Source: Lacipirellulaceae bacterium (GTDB lineage: Bacteria; Planctomycetota; Planctomycetia; Pirellulales; Lacipirellulaceae). Taken from it: a stretch of 64,000 bases of DNA. A model generated the notes under the pieces. That model made no database searches, was not told the DNA's origin, and saw nothing but the letters and a program-made list of their open reading frames with translations. A program made the position numbers and the translations under genes. The DNA is taken from contig JAVJRG010000005.1 in assembly GCA_040218535.1 (NCBI GenBank), positions 868,001-932,000 on the forward strand. The letters are read 5' to 3'. Numbering within the stretch: position 1 is the first letter of the stretch; the number at the start of each line of letters is the position of its first letter. Positions 3,268 to 40,479 of the stretch are shown here, in pieces.

Positions 3268-4512
<1,245 letters not shown>

Positions 4513-4703
4513 GGTGGTGCTTCCTGAATATGTCTGGAGTGGTGAGAGCTTGCGAAGCTGTCTATTGTCGGATTCTGCCCAAAGGTGGTCAATGGGCGAG
4601 AGGTCAACTATAGAACGGCTACGAAATTGCGAGCGGCTCTACTTCACGGTAAGATGATTCCCTCCACTTCAACTCCCTCCCTCTCTGTTCCCAGGGGCAC
4701 TTC

Positions 4704-6055: not shown

Positions 6056-6598
6056 ATGCTCACCCAATCGAAGGAAAAGTATCAGGAAGTTCTGCAAGTC
6101 GCAGAGAAGCTCAGTCGCCAAAGTCCCGATTGGGTTACCTTCTTCCGCGAAGTGCTTGGGGTTGAGGGCATCGTCCGCACGGCCTTCCCTTCTCACGACG
6201 CCCTCACTGAATTCGAGCAGAGCGAAGAATACGACGCCATCCAGCAGATGCTGGTCAAGCTCCGCGAGAAGCGGGCATCCGCAGATGCCGACAACGAGCC
6301 GACCCGCGTGATCACCGTCCGCCTGCCTAAGAGCATGCATGAGTATCTGCGCACCGAGGCCCACGACCTGCGGACCAGCATGAACAAGCTGTGCATCTCG
6401 AAGCTGCTGCAAGTGATCGACGAAGCAAAGATCCCCAACGAGCGAAGCAGCAGCACGCCCGCTCCCCGAGCCACGACCCCCGAGCCCACCACCAACGGTG
6501 CCCCCGTGGCCAAGCCGGCTTCGCAATTGGGCGATTTCACCCAACCGATCCCTCAGCAGTCGCCACCGCCTTATAAGCCGAATCAGACTCGGTTTTAG
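6056..6598 (+). CDS. Ribbon-helix-helix-like (HicB/Arc-type) protein
   Basis: A 180-residue protein preceded by AAGGAG nine bases before the ATG. The middle (about 83-122) reads RVITVRLPKSMHEYLRTEAH followed by a helix-rich stretch, which fits the beta-strand/helix/helix pattern of ribbon-helix-helix DNA-binding domains such as HicB or Arc. The N-terminal 75 residues are a helical domain I do not recognise. The last 50 are Pro/Thr/Gln-rich and probably disordered. No toxin gene lies beside it, so a toxin-antitoxin role is unlikely; a DNA-binding regulator is the better guess. It sits behind an unusual structured leader. Confidence 0.65.
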   Translation: MLTQSKEKYQEVLQVAEKLSRQSPDWVTFFREVLGVEGIVRTAFPSHDALTEFEQSEEYDAIQQMLVKLREKRASADADNEPTRVITVRLPKSMHEYLRTEAHDLRTSMNKLCISKLLQVIDEAKIPNERSSSTPAPRATTPEPTTNGAPVAKPASQLGDFTQPIPQQSPPPYKPNQTRF

Positions 6599-6625
6599 AG
6601 GTTGATTAGCAAAATTAATGAGCTA

Positions 6626-31917: not shown

Positions 31918-33852
31918 TCAGCTCAGCCAAGATCGCTGCAGAAACAGCGCGAGAACTTGCGTCGCAATTTCAGCAACTGAAAGGTCTTCCGTGTCGACGA
32001 CAAGATCGGCATCCTGAGGCTGCTCGTAGTCGAAGGTCACGCCTGGGAAACTTGCAATGCGCCCGTCGTCCGCGGCTTGGTACTGTCCCGTGATGTCGCG
32101 CTCACGACAGACTTCAACCGAAGTTGCTAGGTGAACGTGCAGAAAACGATCAGCTCCAACCAGATCACGCGCCTTCTGCCGTACCCAGTCGCTGGGTGCT
32201 ACGAAAGCGGCAATGCAGATCTGCCCGGAATCGTTCGTCAGCTTTGCTATTTCGGCCGCTCGACGAAGGTTCTCAGAACGCTCTTCGGCAGAGAAACCTA
32301 GGTCGCGACTGATGCCGAGCCTTAAGGTCTGGCCGTCGAGGACGAGACAGTGACGACCATCCTCGAACAATCGACGTTCGAGCTCCATGGCCACGCTCGT
32401 CTTGCCTGAACCGCTAAAACCGGTAATCAGCACGGTGAACGGCTTGTGCCCGTACTTCTCTTGTCTTGACTCTGCGGAGACGAGGCCTCGAGCCAGGCGC
32501 GGAGCAATCGTCGAAGACTGCTCGCCCCAGTGGCCGGCAGTCTCAAGCTTGCCAGAGATCTCTTCAATCATGCCCGCGGCGACGGTTTCGTGAGTAACTC
32601 GATCGACGAGGATAAAAGAACCCGTTTCTCGATTTGAACGATACGAGTCGTGAAAGATTGCATGATGTAGTTTGAGTTCGCAGAGACCAATCTCGTTAAG
32701 TGCAAGCGAGCTGGCGGATTTTCGCTGCAGCGTATTGACGTTTATCTCGTAATGAATCGACTGCACTTCGCAGGAATTCCTTTGCGAGGCGTGCTTCAGC
32801 CAGTACGACTTCCCTGGGACCAAGGCTTGGGAGGACATCCACACAAGCTTCGCAGTGATGTGCTGACTCGAGTTCACCGACGCGTCTGGTGGGACTAGCA
32901 TGTCACCGCGGGTGATGTCGATCTCGTCTTCCAAAGTTACGGTGATCGAATCAGAGGCGACAGCCTCGGTTAGATCTCCGTCCATGGTCACGATACTTTT
33001 CACTCGTGATCGTTTTTTTGAGGGAAGCACCATGACCTCGTCACCGACTCGCACTGTCCCTGAGGCGATCGTTCCGCTAAACCCACGAAAGTCTGCGCTG
33101 GGGCGATTCACCCATTGGACTGGGAAACGTAGTTCCGACTTCTCAGCACTGCTATCGATCGTGACCGAATTGAGGTGGCCGAGTAACGTCAGGCCCGAAT
33201 ACCACGGCGTCTGCTCACTGGGCTGGACGACGTTGGAGCCCTTTAACGCGGAGAGAGGGATCGCAACGGTTTCGATCGCTGGCAATTCTTCGGTAAACTG
33301 CTTGAACTCATCGCGAATACGCTCAAAAGTGATCTGATCAAAATCAAGCAGATCCATCTTATTGACGGCCAACACGACCTGCTTGATGCCGAGCAGCGAA
33401 ACGATAAAAGCGTGTCGTTTTGTTTGCGTGGTAATCCCTTTTGTCGCGTCGACGAGAATAACCGCCAGATCAGCCGTCGAGGCTCCGGTTGCCATGTTTC
33501 GCGTAAACTGCTCATGCCCTGGTGTATCGGCGATGATGAACTTGCGGTACTCGGTTGAAAAATAGCGATAGGCGACGTCAATGGTGATGCCTTGTTGTCG
33601 CTCATCTTCAAGGCCATCGAGCAGCAACGCGGTGTCGATCTCTGCGCCGGTTGTGCCGTGCTTCGTCGATTCGCTCTTTAGTGCTTCGATCTGATCGTCG
33701 TAGATTGCACCCGCGTCGAGTAGCAATCGACCGATGAGTGTACTTTTTCCGTCGTCAACATTTCCGCAAGTGATAAATTTCAGTAGATCTTTCGCGTTAT
33801 GGCTGGAGATCAGAGATTCGATGCTACGCGGAGATTCGTTGGTGGCAAGCAT
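31918..33852 (-). CDS. cysNC: Sulfate adenylyltransferase large subunit / APS kinase fusion
   Basis: A 644-residue fusion. The CysN part (about 1-430) is an EF-Tu-like GTPase (GNVDDGKSTL, DTPGHEQFTRNM, NKMDL) that drives ATP sulfurylase. The CysC part (about 460-635) has its P-loop GFSGSGKTSV and the APS kinase stretch RDLGFSAEERSENLRRAAEIA, making PAPS from APS. The usual DGDN(V/L)R reads DGQTLR. Start 33852 (MLATNES) is preferred. It is the last gene of the dabB-dabA-CA-like-cysD-cysNC row, 73 bases after cysD. Confidence 0.93.
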   Translation of the reverse strand: MLATNESPRSIESLISSHNAKDLLKFITCGNVDDGKSTLIGRLLLDAGAIYDDQIEALKSESTKHGTTGAEIDTALLLDGLEDERQQGITIDVAYRYFSTEYRKFIIADTPGHEQFTRNMATGASTADLAVILVDATKGITTQTKRHAFIVSLLGIKQVVLAVNKMDLLDFDQITFERIRDEFKQFTEELPAIETVAIPLSALKGSNVVQPSEQTPWYSGLTLLGHLNSVTIDSSAEKSELRFPVQWVNRPSADFRGFSGTIASGTVRVGDEVMVLPSKKRSRVKSIVTMDGDLTEAVASDSITVTLEDEIDITRGDMLVPPDASVNSSQHITAKLVWMSSQALVPGKSYWLKHASQRNSCEVQSIHYEINVNTLQRKSASSLALNEIGLCELKLHHAIFHDSYRSNRETGSFILVDRVTHETVAAGMIEEISGKLETAGHWGEQSSTIAPRLARGLVSAESRQEKYGHKPFTVLITGFSGSGKTSVAMELERRLFEDGRHCLVLDGQTLRLGISRDLGFSAEERSENLRRAAEIAKLTNDSGQICIAAFVAPSDWVRQKARDLVGADRFLHVHLATSVEVCRERDITGQYQAADDGRIASFPGVTFDYEQPQDADLVVDTEDLSVAEIATQVLALFLQRSWLS

Positions 33853-33925
33853 GGTGTTCAGTGACCAATTCAACTTTTCTTAGGGGGATAAATGATGGAA
33901 AGAACGCGAGATGTTATTTCATGAC

Positions 33926-34870
33926 TCAAAAGTAGCCATCGCGCTTTTTCTTCTCCATCGCTGCCGCTTCTTCTCGGTCGACAGCACGACCCTGTCGCTC
34001 GGAGACGCGTGTCGTAAGCATTTCGCCGACGATGTCTTCGATCGTTTCGGCGTCAGAATCCACAGCGCCTGTGACAGGATAACAGCCTAGCGTTCGAAAT
34101 CTCACTTTCCTCATCTCTGGGGTTTCCCCATCTTCGAGACGCATCCTCTGATCATCAACGACAATGAGATCGTCGCCCCTTTGGACTACCGGCCTTTCTT
34201 TCGCAAGGTAGAGTGGGACGATAGGGATCTCTTCCTGCATGATGTATTGCCAGACATCCAGCTCGGTCCAGTTGGAAAGCGGAAATACACGAAGGCTTTC
34301 CCCCGGATGCTTCCAGGTATTGAAAAGATGCCAAAGCTCCGGCCTTTGATTGCGAGGGTCCCAGCGATGATTGCGGTCTCGAAAAGAAAAGACTCTTTCC
34401 TTGGCACGCGAACGCTCTTCGTCACGGCGTCCGCCGCCTATTGCCGCGTCGAATTGGTACTCGGTCAACGCCTGCTTGAGCGGCTGAGTTCGCATGATGT
34501 CTGTATACGCTTTTCCGTGGTCGAAAGGATTGATCCCTTCCCGCACCCCCTCATCATTCACATAGGCGATGACGTTTAAACCCAGTTGCTGTCGAGCGTA
34601 CTGCTCTCGGAAGTCGATCATTTCTTGGAATTCCCAAGTCGAATCGATGTGCAGCAACGGAAACGGTGGTTTGCTTGGGTAGAACGCCTTACGGGCGAGA
34701 TGCAAGATCACCGAAGAGTCTTTCCCGATGGAATAGAGCAGAACCGGGTTGTCGAATTCTGCGACGACTTCGCGAAGAATGTAGATGCTCTCCGCTTCCA
34801 GTTTCTTCAGATGAGCTGACTTGCTCGCAGAGTTTTTCGGTGCTTCTTCAATGGTGCTTAGGTTAGTCAT
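33926..34870 (-). CDS. cysD: Sulfate adenylyltransferase small subunit
   Basis: A 314-residue PP-loop ATP pyrophosphatase: [15 protein letters not shown] (SxGKDSS) near residue 50, [16 protein letters not shown] and the C-terminal [14 protein letters not shown] are the family motifs. With CysN it makes adenylylsulfate from sulfate and ATP. It lies 70 bases downstream of the carbonic-anhydrase-like gene and 73 bases upstream of cysNC on the same strand. Length agrees with E. coli CysD (302). Confidence 0.95.
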
Positions 34871-34940: not shown

Positions 34941-35522
34941 TCATGCAAGAGGTCGCAAGGTGCTTGAGTCAGAGTCGTAAGCCATGAAAGCCCCGCTTTG
35001 TGCCAGGTAGAAGAAGCCGTAGAGTTCTAACGTTTTCTCTTCCAGTGCTTTGCCGATCTGTTCGTGGCGGTAAAGTCCGTCAATCTGGTTAACGAAGTGC
35101 TGCTTCGATTCCTGCAGCGTCTTCTGAGCGCGTTTTGCCCCTTCGAGTACAGGGCTTCCAGATTCTCTGGACGCATTAATTACTCGAGAAGAGTCGCCTT
35201 GTTCAACCTGCCAAGATTGGACGCGATCCTCGGTATAGCCCTGAGAGTGCCCAACGAGAACGAGGCGCGAGACCCCTTTCTCAAGAACTGCGAATTCGAG
35301 GACACGTCGATAACTATCCGAGTCGAGGCCCCACTCGCTCTGAGGAACCTTAACGACGACAGCGGGAAGGCCTTCAAACACACTCACAATTGCGTTGACG
35401 GCAACTTCATCCGAATGAGCAATGATCAATACTTCTGGGGCACGAACACTTTGCTCGAAAGCATCCCGGACTTGCTCTAGGCTGAAAGTGCTTCCCTTTG
35501 CCACTAAAGCTGCTGCGACCAT
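34941..35522 (-). CDS. Beta-carbonic anhydrase-like protein lacking zinc cysteines
   Basis: A 193-residue protein that I align by eye to beta-carbonic anhydrases. VLIIAHSDEV (31-40) stands where the enzymes have a GCSDSRV motif: Asp 38 is kept, the zinc Cys is His 36 and the Arg is Val. LVLVGHSQGY (87-96) stands for CGHxxCG: His 92 is kept, but the second zinc Cys is Gly 95. The C-terminal LYGFFYLAQSGAFMAYD matches the LHGWxYDIxTGxxxAYD end of the family. It therefore probably binds no zinc in the normal way. It lies 59 bases downstream of dabA and 70 upstream of cysD. It could be a structural or regulatory subunit for the carbon transporter. Confidence 0.6.
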   Translation of the reverse strand: MVAAALVAKGSTFSLEQVRDAFEQSVRAPEVLIIAHSDEVAVNAIVSVFEGLPAVVVKVPQSEWGLDSDSYRRVLEFAVLEKGVSRLVLVGHSQGYTEDRVQSWQVEQGDSSRVINASRESGSPVLEGAKRAQKTLQESKQHFVNQIDGLYRHEQIGKALEEKTLELYGFFYLAQSGAFMAYDSDSSTLRPLA

Positions 35523-35581: not shown

Positions 35582-38164
35582 CTAATTCAAGGCCAACTCT
35601 TCTGAGGTTTGCTTCCCGGCATTCCGAGAGGAGTCTCCTTCAAGCGAGCGCGTCCCCTCCTTGAGCAGCTGCCAATCTCCAGATGGCAGGTACCGGTGGA
35701 TGCCTTCGTCATCAATGGCAATCAGGTGGAGCCACTGATTCTCAAGCAAAGCAGCCAGCGAACTTTGCTTGTTGATGATACGGTCAATCGACTCTAGCGG
35801 AGCAGCAATGACTGCTTGCAATCGCATTGGCTCATGCTGATAGTTCTCGCCAGAATGAAGCGACTGCCATGGCAGTCCCGTCATCAAATCGCCACTGTTG
35901 CCGGAGAGGATTCCGAACTTCCCGACGACGTTGTGGATCGTCTTGGTTCCGCTCCCAAAGTGCTTCTGGTCTACGGTCGATGCGTAGTACTGCATATTGA
36001 TCAGATGTGCAACGATCATCGGAGCCGTCATGATGTTCTCTAAGACTTCACCGTTGGGGTCGTCCTGATGGTCGTAACTGTGAAGGAATGAGCGACCATC
36101 AAGATCAAGGTTTTTTGTATGAGATCGCGGGGCAATGATAAATGCCGCGTTCCCTGCCAAGCCCCACTCCGGTCGCACTTCCGACCAGTCCGTTGCTCGC
36201 TTGGCCAATCCTGCCAGCGACTGGCTGTCCACGATTGGAAGACGTTCAATCCGCGTCGCATGCGTAGCTGCTTCGGAATATCGGACGAGCTCTTCGTAGT
36301 CGATCTGATGCGTTTCGGGGAGTTGATCGAGATCAAAATAGGAAATTGCGTCGGTCGTCGTGTTGTGAAGACCGCCCAAGAACCAAGTATCACTTGGGAT
36401 CTCAACGCCCCGCTTCGCCAACTCCTGACGAATGTACGGCTGGTTGAGCAACAGTGCTGCCATCCGGGCGTTAGGCTCGCCAGAATGACCGCCACAAGCA
36501 CCGCAATCCAAGCCCGCGGCAAGCGGGTTGTTCTCGGTTTGACAGGCGTGACCACAGAAAGCGACGAGCCTAGCGAAGTTTTTCTCCAGTCCAAGATTCT
36601 TCAGCATGCCGTGAGCCAGATCGACTTGCTTACTGGTGGTGATGCCCTGGTGGTTCAAGTCGCGTAAAGTCGGTGCAAGGTGGTATTGCTGGTCGGAGTC
36701 TATGCCGTCGAACTTTGCGTCCGATCGCGATTGCTTCCAACCAAGTGCTCCCTTGAAGAGCTTGCCGGCAAAGAGCAATCCGGCAGTTTCTACAAACGAG
36801 AAACAACTAACGGCCGATGACTGGAACGACTTCCAAAGTTTCCTAAAGGATCGGATCTCCTGACGCTTCGCGATCACCTCGGCCTCGAGCGCCGGGTCAA
36901 CCGAATCGAGCCCCTCTCGAAGTCGGAACTGCGGCTGAAGCAACACGGGCACGTTGGCACTGCCTGATTCGGCTCCGAGCGGGACGAATTCGATAGGCAT
37001 CGCAAAGAAGCCAGCGAAGCCGAACGTTTCGATAGCGGCCGACTGTGCTTCAAGATGACGCCTAATGCGCTCGGACCGAACATCTATGCAGAACACCAAT
37101 TGAGCCAGCTTTCTACTTTGCTTGACACGCTTACTTTCGATTCCCCCATCGAGCAGGCCATCAACAAGCTTGCCTCGGAAGGCCAGCTCGCTGGCCCTCA
37201 GAAGTACGAGTCGCTCGTCAGTGAGCTGTCTTTCGGCTGGTTCGCGGTCGACGTTGGTTTGCCAATCGAATTGAAGCGAGAACGCTTCACCGAGGGCTGC
37301 CTCGAATGCTAAACGAATGGCTAGGACACCGTGCAGGTCGCCTGAAGTTTGATTCGACTGCGACTGATCTTGATACTTCGCCCACGCACACCAGCCGGGA
37401 ATGGAATAGGCCATCCTGAGCAGCACACCTTCCCAAAGATGCTCGGGCACTCGCATCTTCTCTAAGCAGTGCACAATCGCCGCATCAGGGGTATGGGGGA
37501 TTGACTCGACAAACGTGCGGAAATCCTTAAGCCCAAGAACTTCGACGTTGCGGTCATGCTCCGCTGCAGATCGCCATGCCAAAAAGAGCGACATCTCCTT
37601 CCAGGGGCTCTGCCAGGTGGACTGCCCTTGGTCGTAGTGGGCAGAACAGTGTTTGGAAATCTCGTTGGTGATAACCTCGTTCCAGTCCAACTCCGAGCGG
37701 AGTGAGACATATTCCGCTATTGTCGATGGTGCTGTGGTCGATTCGACTTCCTCTGCGGCAACTCCTGCATCGAGCAGCTTGCTGATCAAATCCTCGACCG
37801 TGACTTTGTGATCTGAGCCCGAGTTGTGGAGTTCCTTAATAGCCTCTTCAATGTGAATGGCCTTGATCTTCCCTTGTTGGAAGAGCTTCGAATAGTACGC
37901 TAGCGGCATCAGGGTTTCACACTTCGAGAAGCTCTGTAGGTAGTTTCGAGCTTCTGCGAATTGTCGGTCTGCCAAGCCGCCATAAGGATTAATCGCAACG
38001 TAGTCTTGCAGTGGCCAGACCGGAGCGATAATCTCCTCGACGCGGCTGAGCAATTCCTCTAGCTGAGAGATCATTTCGGTCGTTTCGAAAAACGACACTT
38101 GTCGCGGCGTTGTCTCAGCGACTGAGGAGTTCTTGGCTTGCGGTAGAGATTCGACTGCTGACAT
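35582..38164 (-). CDS. dabA: DabA inorganic carbon transporter subunit (DUF2309)
   Basis: An 860-residue protein of the DUF2309/DabA family, the cytoplasmic beta-carbonic-anhydrase-like half of the DAB energy-coupled CO2/bicarbonate accumulator. The zinc site seems complete: CIDVRSE (Cys and Asp, spaced as in Halothiobacillus C351/D353), and His followed 15 residues later by Cys in GHACQTENNPLAAGLDC (as H524/C539). The GGHSGEPNARMAA stretch is characteristic. Start 38164 (MSAVES) is chosen because GGAGA lies seven bases before it; an ATG six bases earlier is too close to the SD. It works with dabB, 63 bases upstream. Confidence 0.92.
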   Translation of the reverse strand: MSAVESLPQAKNSSVAETTPRQVSFFETTEMISQLEELLSRVEEIIAPVWPLQDYVAINPYGGLADRQFAEARNYLQSFSKCETLMPLAYYSKLFQQGKIKAIHIEEAIKELHNSGSDHKVTVEDLISKLLDAGVAAEEVESTTAPSTIAEYVSLRSELDWNEVITNEISKHCSAHYDQGQSTWQSPWKEMSLFLAWRSAAEHDRNVEVLGLKDFRTFVESIPHTPDAAIVHCLEKMRVPEHLWEGVLLRMAYSIPGWCAWAKYQDQSQSNQTSGDLHGVLAIRLAFEAALGEAFSLQFDWQTNVDREPAERQLTDERLVLLRASELAFRGKLVDGLLDGGIESKRVKQSRKLAQLVFCIDVRSERIRRHLEAQSAAIETFGFAGFFAMPIEFVPLGAESGSANVPVLLQPQFRLREGLDSVDPALEAEVIAKRQEIRSFRKLWKSFQSSAVSCFSFVETAGLLFAGKLFKGALGWKQSRSDAKFDGIDSDQQYHLAPTLRDLNHQGITTSKQVDLAHGMLKNLGLEKNFARLVAFCGHACQTENNPLAAGLDCGACGGHSGEPNARMAALLLNQPYIRQELAKRGVEIPSDTWFLGGLHNTTTDAISYFDLDQLPETHQIDYEELVRYSEAATHATRIERLPIVDSQSLAGLAKRATDWSEVRPEWGLAGNAAFIIAPRSHTKNLDLDGRSFLHSYDHQDDPNGEVLENIMTAPMIVAHLINMQYYASTVDQKHFGSGTKTIHNVVGKFGILSGNSGDLMTGLPWQSLHSGENYQHEPMRLQAVIAAPLESIDRIINKQSSLAALLENQWLHLIAIDDEGIHRYLPSGDWQLLKEGTRSLEGDSSRNAGKQTSEELALN

Positions 38165-38233
38165 TTTCATTCTCCAAGAGAGATTAAGCTGTATTCTTTT
38201 GAGTCTTCTTAATGTTCGACGATTCTGTTGCGG

Positions 38234-39799
38234 CTATTGCGTTGCCAAGCGACGGAGCAAGCTTTCGAGATAGAAGCCGTTCGAAGCGTGCACGTAAAAG
38301 GCTCGCCAACGCTTGGATTGAGCGATACTGGAAACCGACGCTTGCAGGAGAAAGAGCCCGGCGAACCCAGTAAGAATCATTGCTGGCAAGAACCATCCAC
38401 TGGCCAGGAGTGCCGTAGAAGGCAGGCTTTCAGCAACGATCGAGTCGACGACCGAGTAGGATGCGGCATAGGCCAGACAAAGCGAGACGGTAACGCCCAT
38501 GGCGTAGTAGAGCAGACGGCTGTTCTCAGCTCGCATCACTTGACTTAGCCAACTCGTCATCGCGAGGCATAGAACTCCGCCCAGCAGTAGCCCGCCCGGC
38601 TTAGCAATCGGGTCAACCGCGAAAATGGCGAGTGAGATATCTAGAATTAGGAGCGTCGCCAAGCCGATTCCAGCGACTTTGAACCAGGAGGGTTTCTTCG
38701 AATTAACTTTCGCCCCAAGCGTAGCCGCCTGCTGAGAAAGCACGCTGCCGCTGGTTAAAAAGGCGTGAGCCTTGTAGAGCGAGTGTGCGATGATGTGCAG
38801 CATGGCAGCCGAAAAAGCACCTAGTCCGCATTGCAGCATCATGAAACCCATCTGCGCCACAGTTGAGTAAGCTAACGACTTCTTCACACTCGTCTGGGTC
38901 AGCATCACCACTGCTGCATAACATGCGGTGACCGCACCAAAGATTGCTAGAATTACCAACGCGGTGGGAGCAAGCGAAACGATGGGGCTTGTGCGGATGA
39001 TCAAGTAACCTCCTGCATTGACAATCCCGGCATGCATAAGTGCAGAAACTGGTGTGGGAGTTTCCATCGTCTGAGGCAGCCAAGTATGAAATGGTACTTG
39101 TGCTGACTTCGTGATCGCGCCGACGATCAGCAGAAAGCTAGCCCAAGTCGACGCATCGCTTGGTGGTACCGATTGCTGCTGAATCGCGGCGAAAAGTTCA
39201 CTGAAATTCAGGGTGCCAAATTGGCTGTAGAGGATGGTGAAACCGCCTAAGAGCGCGACGTCCCCGAGACGGCTAACCGTGAATTTGCTCCAGGCCGCTC
39301 GCCTTGCCGCTGGTCGCTCGCCATAGTGCATCAAGAGCTGGTGCAACCCGAGGCTCGTCATGACCCAACAAGCAAAGAACAAGAGCAAGTTGCCGGAAAC
39401 AACCATCAGCGAAACGGCACCGATAGTAAAACTCGCCCACCGGAAGTACCGGCCTTGATTCGCTTCTCCATCGAGATAGCGAATCGAGTATTTGCAGATA
39501 ATCCAACCAATGAAAGCGACCAAAGCAAGCATGAGGCTGGCAACGCCATCGTAGTAAACCGACAATGTCGCAAGACCTGTCTCCCCAAGGGATAAAAACT
39601 CAGCACTGATCGTGGAAGTGAAACCCGTCGCTAGCCCAACACAAATCAGACCTGCTGCGACCGCCTGCAAGGCTGCGATCCAAGTCACTAACTGACGGAA
39701 ACGGCCCGAGGAACGGTTGGCCACCGAATTGGGAACTCCTGCGAAGCCAATGAGGCAGAGGGCGGTAAGACTGATCAAAAGGGCGAGAAATTCATGCAT
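38234..39799 (-). CDS. dabB: DabB inorganic carbon transporter subunit (NuoL/MrpA-like)
   Basis: A 521-residue membrane protein with 13-14 transmembrane segments of the proton-pumping NADH dehydrogenase subunit 5 / antiporter family. The core motif PFHTWLPQTMETPTPVSALMHAG and the Lys/His residues in transmembrane helices (KSLAYSTVAQMGFM, HIIAHSLYKAHAFL) are intact. Beside dabA this is DabB, which couples cation flow (H+ or Na+) to CO2 hydration by DabA. GGAGAA precedes the ATG at 39799. It is the first gene of the row and lies opposite a divergent winged-helix regulator. Confidence 0.92.
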   Translation of the reverse strand: MHEFLALLISLTALCLIGFAGVPNSVANRSSGRFRQLVTWIAALQAVAAGLICVGLATGFTSTISAEFLSLGETGLATLSVYYDGVASLMLALVAFIGWIICKYSIRYLDGEANQGRYFRWASFTIGAVSLMVVSGNLLLFFACWVMTSLGLHQLLMHYGERPAARRAAWSKFTVSRLGDVALLGGFTILYSQFGTLNFSELFAAIQQQSVPPSDASTWASFLLIVGAITKSAQVPFHTWLPQTMETPTPVSALMHAGIVNAGGYLIIRTSPIVSLAPTALVILAIFGAVTACYAAVVMLTQTSVKKSLAYSTVAQMGFMMLQCGLGAFSAAMLHIIAHSLYKAHAFLTSGSVLSQQAATLGAKVNSKKPSWFKVAGIGLATLLILDISLAIFAVDPIAKPGGLLLGGVLCLAMTSWLSQVMRAENSRLLYYAMGVTVSLCLAYAASYSVVDSIVAESLPSTALLASGWFLPAMILTGFAGLFLLQASVSSIAQSKRWRAFYVHASNGFYLESLLRRLATQ

Positions 39800-40110
39800 C
39801 GCGGGTTCTCCATGAAAACTGACAATCGTTGCGTGAAATCTAATACGCGACAAGTATGTCGTCAATATAAATTCGTGTTAAATTTGCCGCATCTTTAGAA
39901 GTTGGCGTGAGAATGTCCCTAAAAGCCCTGAAAACGCCAAAAATAGGGCGAAATATTTTTCGCGAATTTCTTTTCTCGTGTTGCGTGTTAGAATTCAGTG
40001 AGTCGGGAACGCCTCGAAGCAGGTCCCTTGCTCGCTGAGATGCTCGCAAGCACCGCTCTGAGTGAATCCAGTCCCGGACCAGACAGTTCCCCTGAATTAA
40101 GGCGGCAGTT
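39800..40110. promoter_or_regulatory. Divergent promoter region of dabB and the wHTH gene
   Basis: This AT-richer 311-base region separates dabB from the regulator. GCGAAATATTTTTCGC (39948-39963) is a near-perfect palindrome (6-bp arms, TATT centre) and a good operator candidate. No clear -10/-35 pair could be fixed. Confidence 0.45.
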
Positions 40111-40479
40111 ATGGGTAAAGCAGCAGCGAAACGCGCTTCGACGGGTGAATCCAAGAAGAAGAGCACCACGGCACCGAAAAAGCCCCCGTCTGTGGCGACG
40201 GAGTCTGGAAAAACTTGGACTTTTCTGACCAATCATGCGCACGTTTTAATTGCACTAAACGCTCAGCCTGATCTCGTGCTGAGAGAAGTTGCCCGCCTCG
40301 TGGGGATTACCGAAAGGGCCGTGCAGAGAATCGTCCAAGACCTGGAAGAGGAAGGATTTCTGCGACGTGAGAAGATCGGCCGCAAAAACCACTATGAGGT
40401 CGTGACGGATGAACCACTGCGTCATCCGATCGAGTCCCACCGACAAATCGGCGATCTCCTGAAGTTGATTACCGGCTGA
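40111..40479 (+). CDS. Winged helix-turn-helix regulator
   Basis: A 122-residue protein. The first 35 residues are Lys/Ala-rich and disordered. The rest (about 38-110) is a winged helix: [16 protein letters not shown], then the [34 protein letters not shown] and a wing GRKNHYEV, closest to the MarR-like group. No ligand-binding domain is seen. It is divergent from the dab-cys row, which makes it a candidate regulator of that operon; this is inference from position only. A 6-bp hairpin (40491-40506) follows. Confidence 0.8.

Follow-up and report, generated by a model that had tools for sequence, protein, structure and literature searches.

The dab operon and its small carbonic anhydrase-like gene

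On the minus strand of the window, by which we mean the whole 64,000-nucleotide stretch of Lacipirellulaceae DNA that was analysed, five genes follow one another in the order dabB, dabA, pCA, cysD, cysNC, with gaps of about 50–75 bp. The gene considered here, pCA, begins 59 bp after the dabA stop codon and ends 70 bp before the cysD start. The features of the locus are as follows.

40111–40479, plus strand: winged-helix-like regulator, divergent, upstream of dabB (open reading frame; DNA-binding identity judged by eye from the sequence)
38234–39799, minus strand: dabB, NuoL/Mrp-like membrane subunit (Pfam Proton_antipo_M, 178 bits); start set at an internal ATG, the open reading frame being listed from a TTG at 39865
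35582–38170, minus strand: dabA, 862 aa (Pfam DabA, PF10070, 844 bits)
34941–35522, minus strand: pCA, zinc-less protein of 193 aa resembling beta-carbonic anhydrase (beta-CA) (open reading frame with ATG start; Pfam, AF2, fold match and ligand table)
33926–34870, minus strand: cysD, sulfate adenylyltransferase small subunit (Pfam PAPS_reduct, 180 bits; gene order)
31918–33873, minus strand: cysNC, sulfate adenylyltransferase large subunit fused to APS kinase (Pfam GTP_EFTU and APS_kinase)

The first-pass annotation of this DNA had reported the 34941–35522 reading frame between DabA and CysD; its coordinates are exact, and both neighbours are as named, DabA upstream and CysD downstream. The small winged-helix-like protein is the obvious candidate for a regulator of the dab operon, and its divergent position is kept in most related dab loci. 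Scanning the operon for promoters gave promoter-like sites at chance level (5, against 4.8 by chance). Terminator-like sites were in moderate excess (15, against 9.7 with a standard deviation of 3.1). We take neither kind of site as evidence.

The same genome also encodes other CAs: L001, a beta-CA of 213 aa that is intact, and L002, in which SulP is fused to a CA. Elsewhere in it, right after CSDSR (L003, C5:512440-515790), two overlapping frames encode a split CA that has a Tat-like signal peptide, the result of a frameshift, real or assembly-derived. A search for the RuBisCO large chain gave no match in the window's own genome. Five pCA-bearing genomes of its family (G024, G048, G081, G123 and G162) have large-chain matches of 197–213 bits.

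Descent from beta-CA and loss of the zinc site

Judged by profiles and by the model, the window pCA is a genuine relative of the beta-CAs by descent, with a predicted beta-CA fold. Residues 68–178 match Pfam Pro_CA (PF00484) at 31.3 bits, above the gathering cut-off of 25.7, as do 10 of the 11 members of the first pCA alignment. When a profile of eleven relatives was compared with solved structures, the best eight matches were all beta-CAs (best E 1.3e-7). With the single pCA sequence, the PDB returned a designed protein and weak matches only, and NCBIfam returned no family. The AF2 model, built from five sequences (the window protein and four homologues), has a pLDDT of 79 and a pTM of 0.75. 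Foldseek placed beta-CAs first (E 8e-8), the best VIA match was the beta-CA CcaA (5swc; Z 12.8 over 143 residues at 3.8 Å), and nearly all of the structural matches listed were beta-CAs. The AlphaFold comparison that the first-pass annotation had suggested as a check thus gives a beta-CA fold, and its alignment from residue 29 onward fits the structural match, in which model residues 26–192 lie on CcaA.

At the catalytic positions, 12 of 12 ordinary planctomycete CAs have C-D-R-H-C, where the aligned window protein reads H36-D38-V40-H92-G95. Both zinc cysteines have been replaced while Asp38 and His92 are kept, just as the first-pass annotation had read it; the alignment adds that the arginine of the Asp-Arg dyad is also gone (Val40). 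With the catalytic beta-CAs (PF00484; for example CcaA and E. coli Can), pCA shares descent, predicted fold, Asp38 and a C-terminal G-x-[FL]-Y motif. It differs from them not only in the cysteines and the dyad arginine but also in lacking the RNAGN motif, and in the place of their HxxCG helix it has a poorly ordered stretch, residues 97–119, modelled at low confidence (pLDDT <50). Since beta-CA catalysis needs zinc, the window pCA is predicted to be inactive. By contrast, the zinc site of DabA, which had also been called intact, retains C-D-R-H-C in the window and in all 69 sequences compared, bar one gapped row.

The same loss runs through the linked homologues from Planctomycetota, 32 of 36 of which lack both zinc cysteines. 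At the first cysteine position these 36 have His (17), Asp (11), Ser (3), Leu (1), Val (1) or Cys (3). The first cysteine is kept only in G154, G827 and G807, and the second in G154, G827 and G796. For example, G154 and G827, both beside dabA, have a full zinc site, while G807, beside sbtA, has the first cysteine only and G796 the second only. In the tree, the two full-site proteins are closest to the ordinary CAs, and the main group has G807 at its base. The pattern resembles a stepwise decay of the zinc site, in a tree whose deep forks are not all well supported.

Distribution, conservation and gene neighbourhood

The 36 distinct linked homologues were gathered from searches of the order, from profile searches of the phylum and several families, from dabA neighbourhoods and from named genomes; the genomes are a sample and not an exhaustive set. 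With the window protein as query, a search of the order (196 genomes) found eight proteins resembling it (L006–L013), all after dabA and all with zinc ligands lost; ordinary CAs also came up, as did L014 and L017, two more CA-like genes that are linked. A scan of the named genome collection with the single pCA sequence found no relative. A narrower alignment found four loci there, in three Planctomycetales/Pirellulaceae MAGs and in Bythopirellula polymerisocia Pla144 (homologue L149; the same locus as G123). No pCA was found among the viral contigs searched.

In a maximum-likelihood tree, the 36 homologues form one branch apart from the ordinary CAs (support 99/94), and a 19-member core has 99/96 in a smaller tree. 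One genome, G013 (L076 and L083), has a CA with intact ligands beside dabA that falls outside this branch and may represent an independent recruitment. Identity between most members is about 22–38%, so that homology rests on profiles and synteny, and end branches often exceed one change per column. All members have an open reading frame, and in the three core pairs with unsaturated sites dN/dS is 0.20, 0.25 and 0.28 (Nei-Gojobori), showing that core members are under purifying selection. Among 23 core members, F179 is present in all, D38, G91, S93 and F143 in 91%, W64 in 87% and Q61 in 83%. The Q61-x-x-W64 motif is specific to the family, with Q61 and W64 replacing the G and V/I of ordinary CAs in the RNAGN region. 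From this pattern of conservation, we infer that the old active-site cleft was probably rebuilt and not merely eroded.

Thirty of the 36 homologues belong to dabB-dabA operons, which frequently include cysD-cysNC as well: 24 come after dabA (about 1.3 kb away from it in G811) and six after cysN, in the order dabB-dabA-cysD-cysN-CA. These six (L101, L103–L106 and L064) make up a sister group of zinc-less CA-like proteins, in which the first cysteine has become Asp or Ser and the second Phe or Glu. Another five of the 36 are beside sbtA instead of dabA, in clusters of the form mpsC-pCA-(icd)-sbtA. For example, G649 and G818 have pCA with isocitrate dehydrogenase and an intact SbtA (PF05982, 383 bits in G649), G807 has it beside SbtA, and in G914 and G915 the adjoining sbtA is broken. 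G649 also has a dabA, on another contig. The one remaining homologue, in G513, is placed between mpsC and icd on a contig of 3.6 kb. The protein and profile searches presuppose no neighbourhood, unlike the dabA-based sample, and every zinc-less match from them whose neighbourhood was read proved to be linked.

Neighbourhoods were read for about 57–58 short-type dabA genes of the order. No linked CA-like gene was found in 38 of 58 such loci, a few of which are cut by contig ends; for example, L065, L082, L095 and L102 are dabA-cysD-cysN operons devoid of pCA. DAB as such does not depend on pCA. Conversely, neither cysD nor cysN is nearby in eight pCA loci (L060, L078, L079, L085, L142, L186, L188 and L189), and the same is true of those beside sbtA. 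Because five homologues adjoin SbtA and not DabA, the context common to the family is inorganic-carbon uptake by two unrelated transporters. The shared partner of pCA is inorganic-carbon uptake, and neither DabA alone nor sulfate activation.

Several other genes recur at these loci. An MpsC gene (PF10057) lies directly upstream of dabB in L056, L067, L078, L087, L142, L147, L148 and L186, and upstream of pCA in L140, L141, L187, L191, L192 and L195. A published account restricts the collocation of mpsC with mpsAB to staphylococci, and this placement runs against it. In L140, L141, L148 and L187, loci of three families, the gene right after pCA encodes an isocitrate dehydrogenase with the bacterial C-terminal domain (PF18324). 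In two related genomes, sbtA is in fragments (L191, about 6320–6620; L192, about 4120–4590) beside an intact pCA and mpsC.

A role in bicarbonate uptake

We consider it probable, by a modest measure, that pCA is a beta-CA that was recruited to a bicarbonate-uptake operon, lost its zinc and its activity, and now assists or regulates uptake as a soluble protein without catalysis of its own. This role, drawn from sequence, model and neighbourhood, is the likeliest in view of the constant linkage, the selection, the residues conserved although they are not catalytic, and a reason in physiology for losing the zinc. It is known from cyanobacterial carbon concentration that an active cytosolic CA lets accumulated bicarbonate leak as CO2; a CA active beside the pump is expected to do just this, so that losing activity should be an advantage. 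A beta-CA would first have entered the operon, and its zinc site, and CA activity with it, would then have been lost. Its putative binding partner would be the transporter, which in DAB operons means DabA as the cytosolic subunit, or else some partner common to the loci, for which MpsC is a candidate. Through such contact it could tune uptake, and the former active-site cleft may be where it senses bicarbonate. Against this reading stand the many short-type dabA loci without a linked CA-like gene and the lack of a phenotype in S. aureus for MpsC, the other recurrent neighbour (PMC6689103). The low sequence conservation would be just as compatible with a loose role as with regulation.

The first-pass annotation had suggested a dead CA acting as a regulatory or scaffold partner of DabA. 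The dead, regulatory or scaffold CA is supported, in that ligand loss extends through a family that is conserved, under selection and found with a single type of neighbour; DabA as the partner is too narrow, since five homologues adjoin SbtA and not DabA. A bolder proposal, which we regard as doubtful, is that pCA represents a new class of inorganic-carbon sensor, in which the beta-CA fold became a bicarbonate- or CO2-sensing regulator of two unrelated transporters, DAB and SbtA, and of which present-day species would still show the passage from active enzyme to regulator.

Known systems offer partial parallels. DabA itself contains a pair of beta-CA-like domains, of which only domain I has zinc, and DabB resembles NuoL (PMC13144422). 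The H. neapolitanus DAB1 has a third small protein, a transmembrane one (PMC13144422), whereas pCA is proposed to be soluble; it is a frequent genetic neighbour of DAB/MpsAB (DabA, PF10070; DabB, PF00361) but a separate small protein. For an accessory role of a metal-less CA homologue in complex I-type machinery, CAL2 of plant complex I, which has no working metal site, may serve as a precedent (PMC7447434). Plant CAL1/CAL2 and the gamma-CA-like domain of CcmM are likewise CA homologues that have become structural components of machinery handling carbon or protons; these are of the gamma class, with an unrelated fold, whereas pCA is of the beta class. In the sbtA clusters, pCA occupies a place in which one might look for a regulator gene. 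SbtB belongs to the PII-like proteins; pCA does not have the PII fold but a predicted beta-CA fold. The COS hydrolase of Thiobacillus thioparus (3vqj) exemplifies a beta-CA fold with changed function in a sulfur context; it keeps its zinc, and at Z 10.3 it is not closer to the pCA model than ordinary CAs are. In the literature searched, we found no earlier description of pCA, and none joining DabA with carbonic anhydrase and cysD, or DabA with sulfate adenylyltransferase.

The most serious rival, in our view unlikely, is that pCA is a dead subunit that pairs with the active beta-CA of the cell and acts on that enzyme, tethering it to the pump or regulating it there, instead of acting on the transporter. 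The beta-CAs form dimers or tetramers, this genome has both the intact beta-CA and the SulP-CA fusion, CAL2 of plant complex I sits in a trimer whose other members are CA1 and CA2, and the CcmM domain binds active CcaA. Yet pCA and the ordinary CAs sit on well separated branches, the loci read show no regular linkage to an ordinary CA gene, and an active CA held at the pump would oppose the accumulation of bicarbonate.

A new active or metal site, also raised in the first-pass annotation, is a weak prospect that we hold to be quite unlikely. His36, Asp38 and His92 of the window protein occupy the places of Cys, Asp and His in the zinc site and could form a 2-His-1-carboxylate set for another metal or reaction, and H-[D/E]-H is found in 14 of 23 core members (among them G796, H-D-H-C). 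The triad is broken in other core members (D-D-N, L-D-H, V-D-A, H-N-S and others) that have the same neighbours and fold, the stretch following His92 is the low-confidence one, and the family-specific residues Q61, W64 and F179 are no ligand set. Such a site is possible in the window protein, but not in the family as a whole.

A service to CysDN, with pCA as a subunit or regulator of sulfate activation that shares an operon with DabAB by chance, is very improbable. pCA directly precedes cysD in the window and in several relatives, and the sister group directly follows cysN in its six loci. A putative link of the M. tuberculosis CA Rv1284 with cysD found no confirmation in the papers searched. 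Many members, however, have no cysD or cysN nearby, and sulfate activation as the main role was dropped once loci without cysDN and with sbtA had turned up. That pCA is a functionless, decaying remnant, as its missing zinc site and fast divergence might suggest, is hardly credible given the open frames throughout, the low dN/dS, the family-specific conserved residues, the same placement in different genera and families, and a pCA still open in the two genomes where the adjoining sbtA is broken.

The accessory or regulatory reading bears on the control of DAB, whose best studied uptake system is a two-subunit machine. Purified DAB2 shows no CO2 hydration without a membrane potential, gating is so far a hypothesis, and how DAB is switched on and held in one direction has only been hypothesised, in a 2026 cryo-EM paper (PMC13144422). 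Pfam alone would annotate pCA as a carbonic anhydrase, which is probably wrong as to function. As a conserved, apparently non-catalytic protein of CA fold in the dab operon, pCA is a direct candidate for DAB control, and its travelling with SbtA as well points to a common regulatory logic. The homologues with full, half and lost zinc sites are material for studying how an enzyme may become a helper protein.
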